Source: Sedimentisphaerales bacterium (GTDB lineage: Bacteria; Planctomycetota; Phycisphaerae; Sedimentisphaerales; Anaerobacaceae). From it: a stretch of 64,000 bases of DNA. The stretch is taken from contig JAFGEF010000168.1 in assembly GCA_016931715.1 (NCBI GenBank), positions 1 to 64,000 of the forward strand. The letters run 5' to 3'. Position numbers and translations under genes: made by a program. The notes beneath the pieces were generated by a model that worked only from the letters and a program-made list of their open reading frames with translations, was not told the DNA's origin and did not search any database. Of the stretch, positions 7,684 to 30,265 are shown in pieces (position 1 is the first letter of the stretch; every line of letters begins with the position of its first letter).

Positions 7684-7703
7684 TTTATTGAAAATGTTAA
7701 TAA

Positions 7704-7785
7704 GCCAGGGGCGCAAAAGGCCGCAAGGCTCAAGCTGAGAATTGACCCTATGAACCTGCTCGGGATAATGCCCGCGAAGGAAGGC
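7704..7785 (+). promoter_or_regulatory. TPP riboswitch (THI element)
   Basis: All hallmark segments of the TPP aptamer are present in order: CAGGGGCGC, CTGAGA (7735-7740), ACCCTATGAACCTG (7745-7758), GGGATAATGCCC and CGAAGGAAGGC. GCC/GGC ends close helix P1. It lies between a promoter (7656-7683) and a terminator (7891-7918) upstream of a thiazole synthase gene, as expected for thiamine-diphosphate control of thiamine biosynthesis, with bound TPP favouring termination. The P3 arm carries a small variable stem (GGCCGCAAGGCTC). Confidence 0.93.
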
Positions 7786-7809
7786 AAAATAAAGTAAAAA
7801 GTAAAGAGT

Positions 7810-26903: not shown

Positions 26904-26911
26904 AAAAAATT
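26904..26911. repeat. left 8-bp target-site duplication
   Basis: AAAAAATT, repeated exactly at 30258-30265 on the other side of the transposon. Eight bases is the duplication length known for IS1595-family elements. Confidence 0.8.
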
Positions 26912-26934
26912 CGGAAGTATATACTTTACGCACA
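26912..26934. repeat. left terminal inverted repeat
   Basis: 23 bp starting CGGAAGTATATACTTTACGC, the exact reverse complement of 30235-30257. The inner AAGTATATACTT is itself palindromic. Confidence 0.88.
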
Positions 26935-26972
26935 GATAAATTGTGGTGTGATTTTTAAGGTAATCTTATTGG

Positions 26973-27128
26973 TTAAGAATCTTTAGCTTTATCCTTATCT
27001 GGCCATCCAGATTCAGGTTTCTTCCTTAAAATCGCCTTTTTTACTGCAATTTCCCAGTTTTCTTCATCAATTTTGAGGCTATCGGGCTTAGGGCCGGAGT
27101 TTTTATTCTTTTTTCCCTTGTTTTTCAT
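26973..27128 (-). CDS. small hypothetical protein (51 aa) in the transposon
   Basis: A Lys-rich 51-codon ORF (MKNKGKKNKNSGPKPDSLKI...) with a structured-looking centre, DEENWEIAVKKAILRKKP, and the ending GWPDKDKAKDS. It lies just inside the left repeat, transcribed outward. The EENWE.AVKKA..KKKP...GWP pattern looks protein-like. No function is known to me. Ribosome binding site weak. Confidence 0.5.
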   Translation of the reverse strand: MKNKGKKNKNSGPKPDSLKIDEENWEIAVKKAILRKKPESGWPDKDKAKDS

Positions 27129-27192
27129 TAGTATCACTTAGTGTTTAATAGTATTATGCTTTTAAAATAATTTCAAAAATATTAATTTTCCA

Positions 27193-27220
27193 TTGCGTTT
27201 GTCTTGTGTTCTTGTATAAT
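27193..27220 (+). promoter_or_regulatory. promoter for the coiled-coil/winged-helix gene
   Basis: TTGCGT (27193-27198), 16-nt spacer, TATAAT (27215-27220), followed by an AAAGG ribosome binding site at 27236-27240. Confidence 0.6.
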
Positions 27221-27248
27221 CAAGATAGGTTTAATAAAGGATATATCT

Positions 27249-27680
27249 ATGAACTTAAATGAATTAGTAAACTTAAAAGAAATAAAGATTAAACAACGCA
27301 ACGAAATGTTGCAATCGGTCGAACAAATTACCAAAGAGCTTGAGGCTTTAGATACTGTGTTATCTATGCTTCAAAAGACTGATGTTGGCATAAACATAAC
27401 ACCTATTCAACATCCTACTACTACAATAGAACAAAGTCAAGCAGAAGGATATGGCTCATTGACTAAAAATGTAAAAAGAGCTATTAGTCAATTTCCGGGA
27501 ATATGGGATAAAAATGATATAATGGCAAGCATCGGCAAAGTTGATGACGGTTCATTAGCTGGTTGCTTCAATCGGCTTATTAAACAGAGATACATTGAGA
27601 TAGTACAAAAGGGTAGCGGTAGAAGACCGGCTACATATCGAAAAATAAACAACGTTACAATATTTAATAAAAAGGAGTGA
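27249..27680 (+). CDS. coiled-coil/winged-helix-like hypothetical protein, transposon passenger
   Basis: 143 aa from ATG 27249, with AAAGG eight bases upstream; the frame is open from 27204 but that part has no support. Residues 1-45 form a charged amphipathic helix (LKEIKIKQRNEMLQSVEQITKELEALD). Residues about 72-135 look like a winged helix (LTKNVKRAISQFPGIWDKNDI...GSLAGCFNRLIKQRYIEIVQKG), ending in a typical wing (GRRPATYRKI). A DNA-binding role, perhaps regulating the element, is inference. It has its own promoter and a downstream hairpin. Confidence 0.65.
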   Translation: MNLNELVNLKEIKIKQRNEMLQSVEQITKELEALDTVLSMLQKTDVGINITPIQHPTTTIEQSQAEGYGSLTKNVKRAISQFPGIWDKNDIMASIGKVDDGSLAGCFNRLIKQRYIEIVQKGSGRRPATYRKINNVTIFNKKE

Positions 27681-27688
27681 TAAAAGAT

Positions 27689-27715
27689 AAGGGGTTTGCT
27701 ACCAACAAACCCCTT
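27689..27715 (+). terminator. hairpin after the winged-helix gene
   Basis: AAGGGGTTTG, 7-nt loop, CAAACCCCTT: a perfect 10-bp stem nine bases after the stop codon. No T-run follows, so it may terminate weakly or protect the 3' end. Confidence 0.5.
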
Positions 27716-27805
27716 ACTAATATTAGTATGGCACGGATGCTCATACACTTCAATTATTTATTACATATCTTACAGCCTCGGGCGCCACCACGTCAAGCGA
27801 AAAAA

Positions 27806-27851
27806 TGGCCTTGTAGGAAATTTCTGTACTCCCAGAGAGCCTACAAGGCCA
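27806..27851 (+). ncRNA. stable hairpin upstream of the tRNA gene, possibly a small RNA or terminator
   Basis: TGGCCTTGTAGG (27806-27817) pairs perfectly with CCTACAAGGCCA (27840-27851) around a 22-nt loop, followed by AAACTTTT and, 11 bases on, the tRNA gene. No ORF explains it. It could be a terminator, a processed leader of the tRNA, or a small structured RNA of the transposon. Confidence 0.4.
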
Positions 27852-27862
27852 AACTTTTAATT

Positions 27863-27946
27863 GCTCCGGTGATGAAACGGCAGACATATTACGCATGGAA
27901 CGTAATGGCATTTATTGCCTTCTGGGTTCGATTCCCAGCCGGAGCA
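27863..27946 (+). tRNA. class II tRNA-like gene, leucine-type body with apparent UGG anticodon
   Basis: 84 nt folding as a complete class II tRNA: acceptor GCTCCGG/CCGGAGC with A73, D-arm ATG...CAT with GG and GCAGA as in tRNA-Leu, anticodon stem TTACG/CGTAA, long variable arm GGCA/TGCC, and T-arm CTGGG TTCGATT CCCAG. The seven-base anticodon loop is CATGGAA, putting UGG (proline codons) at 34-36 and A instead of the near-universal U at 33. The body and discriminator suggest LeuRS recognition. CCA is not encoded, as in the other two tRNAs here. It is a transposon passenger and may be a decayed tRNA-Leu or a recoding tRNA. Confidence 0.6.
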
Positions 27947-28022
27947 TTGATTGCTGGTCATAAAGAACTACAGCAATCCAACGTGTTTAACAGTTCTGTT
28001 GCTTTATTTGAAAGGTTTTTGT

Positions 28023-28148
28023 ATGCAACAGCAACAAACCCCACAAGGCCATTGGGTCTATACTGCATATATTACACTCCGTAATGGAAAAGTAATATAT
28101 GCGGCTTCCTATGGCCTCAAAGCGTTTAGAATCTGGATTAAATCCTAA
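28023..28148 (+). CDS. 41-aa small protein, transposon passenger
   Basis: Starts at ATG 28023, with AAAGG seven bases upstream. The sequence reads MQQQQTPQGHWVYTAYITLR then NGKVIYAASYGLKAFRIWIK. The Trp/Tyr-rich beta-like pattern ending in a basic helix-like tail looks like a real small protein. It follows the tRNA by 76 bp and ends just before a terminator. Function unknown. Confidence 0.5.
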   Translation: MQQQQTPQGHWVYTAYITLRNGKVIYAASYGLKAFRIWIKS

Positions 28149-28160
28149 ATTCTGAACATT

Positions 28161-28200
28161 CTCCCAGTCGAGGCTTACCCCTTGACTGGGGGATATTTTT
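28161..28200 (+). terminator. terminator after the 41-aa ORF
   Basis: CCCAGTCGAGG, a 6-nt loop, CCTTGACTGGG, then GGATATTTTT: 10 of 11 stem pairs plus a T-run, 12 bp after the stop codon. It also faces the end of the convergent transposase gene. Confidence 0.65.
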
Positions 28201-28238
28201 ATATCGTCCAAATATTAACTTGTCAAACAACAATTCTA

Positions 28239-29219
28239 TTATGCTGTTTTTGAAATTGGTTCTTTATACATTAATCGTTTGCCGTCTGCACTTCTAATAG
28301 CCTTTTGAACACGCATACCATCGTCTATTTTACGGGCATTCCATCGAAAAGCAAACTCATTTATATAGCGGTGTAGATGTTTTTTGGAGACCGAGTGAAA
28401 AGTCCCATAAACGCCACGTTTCAGCAAAGCAAAGAAACTTTCTACAGTATTGGTGTTATCTTCGCCGCGAGTATATTCTTTTATTTTATGATTTACAATC
28501 CCATGACCGCCGTCAAATGGCTTGCCAATATTCCGATAAAGAGGAAAATCATCAGTATTAAGCCTTGACGATAATTCGACATTTTTTATTAATTCTTCTT
28601 TTAACGTTTCTACCGTTATTTTTTTCATTACTTTTGTTCTTACATTGCCATTTCTTTCGACAATGGCAAATACAGGTGTCTTTTTTGTTCCACGACCGAT
28701 TGAACGTTTAATGCCTTCAATTTTTGTCTGATGATGTCTGGGCTTGCCGCCTACATACGTTTCATCAGCTTCTACTGTTCCCTGTAATTTCTCTTTTTGT
28801 TTTGGCTCTGTCATTGCATAACGTATTCTGTGCATTAGGAATAAAGCACTTTTGTATGTAATGCTACATTCACGACTTATCTGTAATGCACTAATGCCTT
28901 TTTTAGAGGAACAGGCTTTCCAAAAGGCATAACACCATATTCTCAATGGAATACGTGAATCTTCAAAAACTGTTCCGATTCTTACTGTAAATTGTTTCTT
29001 ACATCCATGACAACGCCAAAGATAACGCTTATTTCTCTTTCCATCTTCACCCATCACTTTAACAACATCGGTATCGCCACAATGAGGACAAGCAGGAATT
29101 TCACCCCATCTTTGCTTTTCCATAAATTCTGTTGCGGCTGTTTCGTCTATACAGGCTAATGGGATTTCTTTTAATACTTCGTTATCTGTTTGACCGGGTT
29201 TTGTATTTTTCTTTTTCAT
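28239..29219 (-). CDS. IS1595 family transposase (ISXO2-like)
   Basis: 326 aa, apparently intact. The N-terminal zinc ribbon is CPHCG...CHGCKKQF (about 45-80) with the family helix IPLRIWCYAFWKACSSKKGISALQISRE. The ISXO2-like DDE domain follows: first Asp in VEADETYVGG, second in RLNTDDFPLY, then the motif NTVESFFALLKRGVYGTFHSVSKKHLHRYINEFAFRWN split by its conserved residues. It catalyses movement of the surrounding element. It is transcribed opposite to most of the cargo, from a promoter that contains a copy of the terminal-repeat core. Confidence 0.93.
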   Translation of the reverse strand: MKKKNTKPGQTDNEVLKEIPLACIDETAATEFMEKQRWGEIPACPHCGDTDVVKVMGEDGKRNKRYLWRCHGCKKQFTVRIGTVFEDSRIPLRIWCYAFWKACSSKKGISALQISRECSITYKSALFLMHRIRYAMTEPKQKEKLQGTVEADETYVGGKPRHHQTKIEGIKRSIGRGTKKTPVFAIVERNGNVRTKVMKKITVETLKEELIKNVELSSRLNTDDFPLYRNIGKPFDGGHGIVNHKIKEYTRGEDNTNTVESFFALLKRGVYGTFHSVSKKHLHRYINEFAFRWNARKIDDGMRVQKAIRSADGKRLMYKEPISKTA

Positions 29220-29230
29220 AATATACTAAT

Positions 29231-29257
29231 TTTATACTTGACGCACAGAATTATCAA
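29231..29257 (-). promoter_or_regulatory. transposase promoter overlapping an internal terminal-repeat-like site
   Basis: On the minus strand TTGATA (29257-29252), 15 nt, TATAAA (29236-29231). The plus-strand stretch 29233-29249, TATACTTGACGCACAGA, matches the inner terminal repeat and adjacent bases at 26920-26936 at 16 of 17 positions, so the transposase may bind its own promoter. Confidence 0.5.
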
Positions 29258-29411
29258 GAAGAAAATAAAGATTTTTTGGATAAATTTGCATATTTTTGCA
29301 CTTTTTTTTGGTTATTCTAAAAAGTATGAACATTTTTAGAAAAAATTTAGTAAATTTTCTTGGCAAGAGTTAATTTGGTCGATATTTTATAGTTGCCGTT
29401 GCGTATTTTAC

Positions 29412-29440
29412 TTGCCGTTTGAAAGCAAATATGATATATT
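29412..29440 (+). promoter_or_regulatory. promoter for the DUF5678-like/protease pair
   Basis: TTGCCG (29412-29417), 17-nt spacer, TATATT (29435-29440), 55 bp upstream of the ATG at 29496. Confidence 0.45.
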
Positions 29441-29495
29441 ATATCTGGTGAATAACATGAAATGTATCACCTTTTTTTAGTGTGGAGCGTCTTTT

Positions 29496-29699
29496 ATGTC
29501 TAAAACGAAAAGCAAAAAAGATAATATCTGTAAAAGTTCCGAGTCTTCTTATGTTGCCTTCGACCCTGTAAAAGGAAGTTCAGATATTATTGCTTGTGAT
29601 TCCAATGTCGGTAAAGTAATTGATTTGGCTCGGAAACAAGGTATTGATGTTCCTGCTATTATGTTTGTTCCAGAAGAAGGGGTAACATACATATATTAA
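29496..29699 (+). CDS. DUF5678-like small protein, transposon passenger
   Basis: 67 aa. After a charged N-terminus, residues 20-67 read YVAFDPVKGSSDIIACDSNV then GKVIDLARKQGIDVPAIMFV and PEEG..YIY. This is the beta-beta-alpha-beta pattern of DUF5678-type small proteins (aDG.VIA.G.d..ev...A...G...P.v.FVP). Ribosome binding site GGAG. It is followed by the protease gene after 7 bp, clearly co-transcribed. A partner or antitoxin-like role next to the protease is speculation. Confidence 0.65.
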   Translation: MSKTKSKKDNICKSSESSYVAFDPVKGSSDIIACDSNVGKVIDLARKQGIDVPAIMFVPEEGVTYIY

Positions 29700-29706
29700 A
29701 TGAACG

Positions 29707-30210
29707 ATGCCTATTCAAGAATACCCATTTCTTTTACCAACAAAAGAAGGGATTAAAATAAGATGCCCTAATTCTTTACCGATGCTCTGGATTAGGGTTA
29801 TTAATCCTGCCAATAAAATTGCTGTTGTAGTCCCCGCTTTAATAGATACTGGTGCTATTAGTTGTGCTTTTCCCGCAAGCTGTGCCTCTAAACTTGGGCA
29901 TGATTTACGTTCAGTTCCTCATAAAAAAATTATAACAGGGAATGGTGTTACTTGTGCTTTTCCACATACATCAATAGTCCAAATATTAAATATTAAACCA
30001 GATGGAAATCCTGATATAACAAAAATTTTATTTACAATAAACGAGCAATTAATAGATTACACTGAAGGATTGGATGCTTTTTTGTTAGGCCAACAAAATT
30101 TTCTTGATAAATTTATATTAAGCATTAATTATCCACAAAAAAAATTATCTGTCCGTTACCCTCACTCACCAATAGAGAAAAAAATAAAAATCAAAAAAAG
30201 AAGGCACTAA
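29707..30210 (+). CDS. retropepsin-like aspartic protease domain protein, transposon passenger
   Basis: 167 aa. The catalytic loop PALIDTGAISCAFPASCASKLG (Asp-Thr-Gly-Ala, about residue 47) is followed by the flap/strand region and LGQQNFLDKFILSINYPQKKLSVRY, equivalent to the LLG.dFL..f...id.....l.i motif of clan AA aspartic proteases. Bacterial one-domain retropepsin-like proteins are predicted to work as homodimers. The C-terminus is very basic (KKIKIKKRR). The substrate is unknown. It sits with the DUF5678-like gene just inside the right terminal repeat. Confidence 0.75.
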   Translation: MPIQEYPFLLPTKEGIKIRCPNSLPMLWIRVINPANKIAVVVPALIDTGAISCAFPASCASKLGHDLRSVPHKKIITGNGVTCAFPHTSIVQILNIKPDGNPDITKILFTINEQLIDYTEGLDAFLLGQQNFLDKFILSINYPQKKLSVRYPHSPIEKKIKIKKRRH

Positions 30211-30234
30211 ATTAATATAATTATTCCCAATTTT

Positions 30235-30257
30235 TGTGCGTAAAGTATATACTTCCG
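30235..30257. repeat. right terminal inverted repeat
   Basis: 23 bp, exact reverse complement of 26912-26934. Confidence 0.88.
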
Positions 30258-30265
30258 AAAAAATT
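30258..30265. repeat. right 8-bp target-site duplication
   Basis: AAAAAATT, identical to 26904-26911. Confidence 0.8.

Follow-up and report, generated by a model that had tools for sequence, protein, structure and literature searches.

A tRNA with a class II leucine body and a proline anticodon in an IS1595-family transposon, and its possible role in decoding the linked transposase

Described recoding systems and mismatched tRNAs

Phages of the crAss-like group and others carry suppressor tRNAs and recode stop codons, for example TAG to Gln (PMC9523058, PMC10879173). The IS1595-family elements described here resemble these phages in that the tRNA of a mobile element would allow that element's genes to be read in an altered code. 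The phages reassign stop codons across many genes, whereas reassignment in the IS1595 elements would mainly concern a sense codon (CCA or GCA, read as Leu) of the single transposase gene of a small transposon. Reassignment of a sense codon is known from yeasts, where the meaning of CUG has changed (PMC8629427). The yeast and IS1595 cases are alike in that ambiguous decoding by competing tRNAs is involved, but the yeast reassignment is genome-wide and that proposed for IS1595 elements is confined to a single transposase. The alternative-code screen of the same report left out proteins encoded by mobile elements, transposons among them (PMC8629427), and was therefore blind to systems of this kind.

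Natural class II tRNAs with mismatched anticodons, charged by anticodon-blind synthetases, have been described as allo-tRNAs (Mukai et al. 2017, as summarized in PMC7609411). According to that summary, one allo-tRNA overlaps an ORF related to transposons, and a connection with transposable elements has been guessed at. The IS1595 tRNAs share with the allo-tRNAs, as summarized there, a class II body and an anticodon unfit for the amino acid. Within the same account, the acceptor/T arms of allo-tRNAs are 8/4 or 9/3, their identity is mostly Ser or Ala, and no target is known for them, whereas the IS1595 tRNAs have 7/5 arms (the tRNA examined here included), an apparent Leu identity and, in the linked transposase, a codon that matches their anticodon. 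In the open-access literature searched we found no link between IS1595 and such tRNAs, and no description of a private code within one gene. In IS1 and other insertion sequences, programmed frameshifting limits functional transposase. The tRNA recoding proposed here would likewise be a translational recoding with that effect, but frameshifting of the IS1 type proceeds without an element-encoded tRNA, whereas the IS1595 elements carry their own.

The tRNA and the transposon that carries it

The window (the whole 64,000-nucleotide stretch of DNA analysed, part of one contig of a planctomycete genome) contains a complete IS1595-family transposon of 3,346 bp at 26912–30257, with a class II tRNA as cargo. 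Its features are as follows.

26904–26911, unstranded: left copy of the 8-bp target-site duplication, AAAAAATT, read from the sequence
26912–26934, plus strand: left terminal inverted repeat, 23 bp, CGGAAGTATATACTTTACGCACA, exact inverted ends
26973–27128, minus strand: ORF A, 51 aa, lysine-rich, GPKP..LKI..NW..AVKKA..KKP..GWP, recurring in such transposons
27249–27680, plus strand: ORF B, predicted coiled coil and winged-helix-like C-terminus, weak profile matches only
27687–27796, minus strand: promoter-like site (27796–27767) and terminator-like hairpin (27717–27687), pattern matches only
27806–27851, plus strand: perfect hairpin of 12 bp just 5' of the tRNA, from sequence
27863–27946, plus strand: class II tRNA with Leu body and A73, anticodon UGG at 27896–27898 and A33 at 27895
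28023–28148, plus strand: ORF of 41 aa, MQQQQTPQGHWVYTAYITLRNGKVIYAASYGLKAFRIWIKS, within a long hairpin, from sequence
28239–29219, minus strand: IS1595-family transposase, 326 aa, intact DDE, from profile matches
28257–28259, minus strand: CCA codon of transposase residue 321, candidate C-terminal recoding position, GKRLMYKE-P-I, from codon comparison
29160–29162, minus strand: CCA codon of transposase residue 20, candidate N-terminal recoding position, EI-P-LAC, from codon comparison
29496–29699, plus strand: passenger ORF, 67 aa, whose homologue adjoins a protease gene in L028
29707–30210, plus strand: passenger ORF, retropepsin-like aspartyl protease, from profile matches
30235–30257, minus strand: right terminal inverted repeat, 23 bp, exact inverted ends
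30258–30265, unstranded: right copy of the 8-bp target-site duplication, AAAAAATT, read from the sequence

The inverted ends and 8-bp target duplication are those of the IS1595 family, one member of which has been reported with 8-bp repeats (PMC12561309). The transposase contains the ISXO2-like DDE domain and zinc ribbon that mark the family (profile matches PF12762, 1.1e-39; PF12760, 1.2e-9; NF033547, 5e-57). Both the element and its tRNA are present in a single copy in the host genome. The ends and the flanking duplication show that the tRNA belongs to the transposon, confirming that it is transposon cargo, as an earlier note on this DNA had stated.

Homologues of ORF A lie close to many transposases that bear tRNAs, and in several other elements an ORF B-type gene adjoins the tRNA. 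Many relatives also have a hairpin in the equivalent place, with a different sequence. A family search with the 41-aa ORF at 28023–28148 gave no match. In a sister genome (L028), homologues of the 67-aa ORF and the aspartyl protease are adjacent to each other, and a transposase search of that genome returned no match. A candidate short RNA from 27687–27796 would read away from the tRNA and is possibly antisense to the end of ORF B; the same promoter-like and terminator-like arrangement can be read in the related element L004. Elsewhere in the window, a TPP riboswitch lies at 7697–7799 (56 bits).

ARAGORN calls a tRNA-Pro(tgg) at 27862–27947, within which the mature gene occupies 27863–27946. 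The seven-base anticodon loop, CATGGAA, has A at position 33 and TGG at 34–36. All stems, including one of 4 bp in the variable arm, are present, as are T8, A14, G18G19, A73 and a T-loop of sequence TTCGATT; the tRNA scores under the tRNA gathering score of Rfam. A GGCAGAC D-loop together with A73 is common to this tRNA and all five host tRNA-Leu genes, whereas host tRNA-Ser and tRNA-Tyr lack the combination; the D-loop thus identifies a leucine body joined to a proline anticodon. In its class II body, its Leu-type D-arm and A73 the tRNA matches bacterial tRNA-Leu, but the anticodon is UGG rather than NAG or YAA, and the class I body of host tRNA-Pro is absent. The sequence, ARAGORN and the comparison with host tRNA-Leu therefore agree with the earlier description: class II, a leucine body, UGG at 34–36, A33 and intact stems. 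The host genome also contains ordinary class I tRNA-Pro(UGG) and tRNA-Pro(CGG), so its reading of CCA does not need the transposon's tRNA.

Among 20 aligned, related class II tRNAs, 96.5% of paired cells are paired and 22 of the 24 pairs have changes on both sides. The 146 double-change cells in this alignment were reached in 0 of 500 shuffles, and the fold is not due to chance. U33 is present in all 19 tRNAs aligned with the window copy; A33 is private to that copy and not a family feature. The window transposase also has CCA at residue 91, a true-Pro column, and on account of A33 and this codon the window tRNA may be weak or decaying. These same two features would suit a functionless, decayed copy, about which family resemblance would say nothing; with every stem intact and both key CCA codons kept in the transposase, such a copy is scarcely credible, and decay of one copy would leave the family-level result unaffected. 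The earlier note had named normal homologues with a leucine anticodon as the sign of simple mutation. None of the homologues found has a Leu anticodon: UGG or another non-Leu anticodon is kept, together with compensated stems, which rules out a mutated tRNA or pseudogene as a general explanation.

Anticodons and transposase codons in related elements

DNA similarity searches with a 541-bp region gave no match to plasmid and phage records and, among 294 genomes of the phylum, nothing beyond the window itself; related elements were instead revealed by transposase search. The closest transposase (L004, 64%) is from another genus. Its module has ends like those of the window element, the duplication CAAAATGA, ORF A, ORF B, the hairpin and a class II tRNA(UGG) with U33. 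The L004 transposase is reversed relative to the tRNA, so these elements do not always have the transposase 3' end close to the tRNA.

When 84,980 species and a set of viral contigs were scanned by pattern for UGG-bearing, Leu-like tRNAs of class II, 30 stretches came from species and 7 from viral contigs. Slightly more than half of these fold as a tRNA, and about half of those have an IS1595 transposase nearby; pattern matches inside protein-coding DNA, which have no tRNA fold, were discarded. Because the pattern itself selects UGG, a second sample was drawn by transposase alone and tRNAs were sought afterwards with ARAGORN and a covariance model, R1. The model caught tRNAs with variable arms 15–37 nt longer, which ARAGORN missed. 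In all, 23 elements carry a Leu-body UGG tRNA, 5 UGC and 2 AGG, and there is one element each with UUA, CUA, GGA, Ser-body UGG and Ser-like UAU. Their hosts are Acidobacteriota, Planctomycetota, Chloroflexota and Pseudomonadota, in addition to viral contigs. The anticodon is unfit for the Leu or Ser body, UGG being the commonest beside UGC, AGG, UUA, CUA and GGA. On the transposase tree the UGG label needs at least nine changes on well-supported (starred) branches, and clades far apart carry it, indicating that the association was gained or lost several times.

Individual elements vary in architecture. Extra-long variable arms occur at L230:4961–5075, L242:3681–3780, L196:1378–1480 and L192:2588–2690, on all of which ARAGORN is silent, and a second tRNA-like sequence lies directly 3' of the class II tRNA at L201:2669–2739 and L209:2590–2663. 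A Ser-body tRNA(UGG) at L084:2689–2773 adjoins an IS1595 transposase in which one of two CCA codons is at a position that is mostly Ser in tRNA-bearing relatives. The class II tRNA at L259:1916–2008 (93–96 nt, anticodon UAU) lies near IS1595 and resembles the Edaphobacter allo-tRNA(UAU); no ATA codon was found among the aligned columns tested of the L259 transposase. The Prevotella matches L048 and L054, and some other matches, are without IS1595. L044 and L061 have a class II tRNA(UGG) and an ORF B-like coiled-coil/winged-helix ORF with no IS1595 transposase in the stretch, and the pair of tRNA and ORF B-like gene may travel without the transposase. L067 and L076 seem to share passenger genes: in each, a GIY-YIG-like ORF occurs near the tRNA(UGG) together with a small ORF whose product ends in GTGSGC. 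IS1595 is present at only one of the two.

Codon use was tested column by column with the transposases of tRNA-less relatives as the reference. For the 23 Leu-body UGG elements, CCA columns have a Pro frequency of 0.11 and an L/I/M/V frequency of 0.29 in those relatives, compared with 0.32–0.36 and 0.14–0.16 for the other Pro codons (CCG, CCC, CCT). The sequences are related, and all permutation and exact tests were run without correction for kinship; on that basis the within-element permutation p for CCA is 5e-5 (the floor), or 6e-4 when the two key columns are left out. In UGG elements GCA behaves normally. For the five UGC elements, GCA columns stand at 0.09 against 0.33 for GCG (p = 5e-5, kinship ignored) and CCA is normal, so that by codon comparison UGG/CCA and UGC/GCA form a double dissociation. 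Among Ala codons at alignment column 151, GCA is used in 5/5 UGC elements and 1/22 others.

Invariance of synonymous codons in UGG elements singles out the same triplet, the top four of 144 columns all being CCA (median amino-acid identity 49%). As expected of an element-encoded recoding tRNA, the cognate codon stands in the element's own gene where another amino acid is conserved. True-Pro columns avoid CCA (2/54), and CCG in these transposases behaves as ordinary Pro. The earlier suggestion of Leu at CCA and CCG codons is thus favoured for CCA; a reading of CCG by tRNAs of the window type was considered and dropped. CCA avoidance was also looked for in ORF A of UGG elements, where none is clear.

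The strongest matches are at two sites. At the C-terminal site, CCA accounts for 16/17 Pro codons in elements with a UGG tRNA and 2/20 in those without (p = 2e-7, kinship ignored); at the N-terminal site the counts are 14/14 and 0/4 (p = 3e-4, kinship ignored). A UGG tRNA accompanies CCA at either site in 20/22 cases, as opposed to 3/143 (p = 1.4e-20, kinship ignored). The tRNA-less relatives have mostly Leu or another hydrophobic residue at both sites, most often Leu at the C-terminal one. The C-terminal codon is CCT in an AGG element (L248) and TAG in the CUA element L324 (GKRLTYRA[TAG]IERNK). The transposase of the UUA element L201 ends in TAA, and no convincing in-frame TAA was found there besides this stop. 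Genome G220 contains two elements whose N-terminal site is CCA in the UGG element and CCG in the UUA element; different codons within one genome argue against host codon bias as the cause.

Five elements (L242, L230, L192, L189 and L190) were first scored as tRNA-less despite a key-column CCA, and their UGG tRNAs were then found with longer flanks or the covariance model. The expectation was fixed before the last search. As predicted, L369 and L370, both newly found UGG elements, have CCA; the fragment L362 has Met, and CCT is used by eight Pseudomonadota elements that lack such a tRNA. There are exceptions: the UGG elements L196, L209 (a fragment) and L243 lack both key CCAs, L045 and L231 lack the C-terminal CCA, L230 has CCG there, and no tRNA was found for L256 and L258, which have a key CCA. 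Two in-frame stops, a TAA at a Gln position of L190 and a TAG at a Glu position of L192, were dismissed as recoding and taken as decay, since both elements carry UGG rather than suppressor tRNAs. Over several anticodons and phyla, the linked transposase has conserved codons that match the anticodon of the tRNA. A decoy or a non-translational RNA, the other roles raised by the earlier note, would leave this match unexplained.

A constraint of another kind is seen at the C-terminal codon in a Pseudomonadota clade in which no tRNA was detected. Across L323–L344 and viral relatives, about 95% of the elements with no detected tRNA have N[C/T]T there (CCT, ACT, ATT, GCT, TCT), irrespective of the amino acid. 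This third-base T constraint on the same codon would fit a signal in the DNA or RNA that keeps the CCA triplets independently of decoding. Such a signal is very improbable in the tRNA-bearing elements, in which the conserved triplet is in frame, the bases flanking the C-terminal CCA vary, and the favoured codon shifts to GCA, CCT or TAG along with the anticodon.

Proposed decoding and its implications

The likely target of the tRNA, overlooked in the earlier note, is the transposon's own transposase. We consider it probable, from the sequence comparisons above, that the tRNA is charged by leucyl-tRNA synthetase and recodes its cognate codon to Leu in that protein. Bacterial leucyl-tRNA synthetase does not read the anticodon. 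The host enzyme would charge the element's tRNA with Leu, as its body suggests, and at the C- and N-terminal sites of the transposase mRNA the charged tRNA would decode its cognate codon (CCA in UGG elements) as Leu, giving what would be the active form. In a predicted structure of the window transposase (AF2, pLDDT 84), residue 20 lies inside helix 14–24, which the model makes an unlikely position for proline, and residue 321 is in a disordered C-terminal tail. The host tuf gene has CCA at a conserved Pro of EF-Tu, and the host thus reads CCA as Pro, so recoding could only be partial. The element's tRNA would compete with host tRNA-Pro(UGG), and only a share of the transposase would carry Leu. 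This competition may limit transposition, in the manner of IS1 frameshifting, or tie the transposase to its own element; the recoding probably serves as a throttle or lock on transposase activity.

A brake by self-poisoning would work in the opposite sense: tRNA-Leu(UGG) would misread true Pro CCA codons as Leu and inactivate part of the transposase, thereby limiting transposition. This accounts for the codon–anticodon match equally well, and at the N-terminal site Pro is encoded by other codons (CCG, CCC, CCT) in four relatives that lack a UGG tRNA, showing that Pro is tolerated there. We nevertheless regard it as unlikely, because the best conserved Pro columns avoid CCA and the C-terminal CCA stands where Leu is commonest in relatives. 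The tRNA could also act on the host, through mistranslation, as a decoy for tRNA nucleases or in codon supply, with a transposase gene merely adapted to tolerate it. The occurrence of similar tRNAs without a detected IS1595 transposase, some beside an ORF B-like gene as in L044 and L061, agrees with a host target. Tolerance, however, predicts avoidance of the codon, and invariance at particular sites is observed instead, which leaves a host target quite improbable.

Recoding of the linked transposase to Leu may be one case of a wider arrangement, which we think reasonably likely: IS1595 elements would possess a private code, in which interchangeable class II tRNAs each reassign a sense or stop codon of the linked transposase, a gene read correctly only with its own tRNA. 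If so, sense-codon recoding encoded by a mobile element would control or lock its transposition. A genetic code would then be private to a 3-kb mobile element, reassigning sense codons for a single gene while operating inside cells that use the standard code, and similar systems could have escaped genome-wide alternative-code screens (PMC8629427). The control of transposases would gain a recoding route beside frameshifting. Natural tRNAs with mismatched anticodons would acquire a purpose, and partial recoding could be studied with the pairs of anticodon and matching codon that the family naturally provides.
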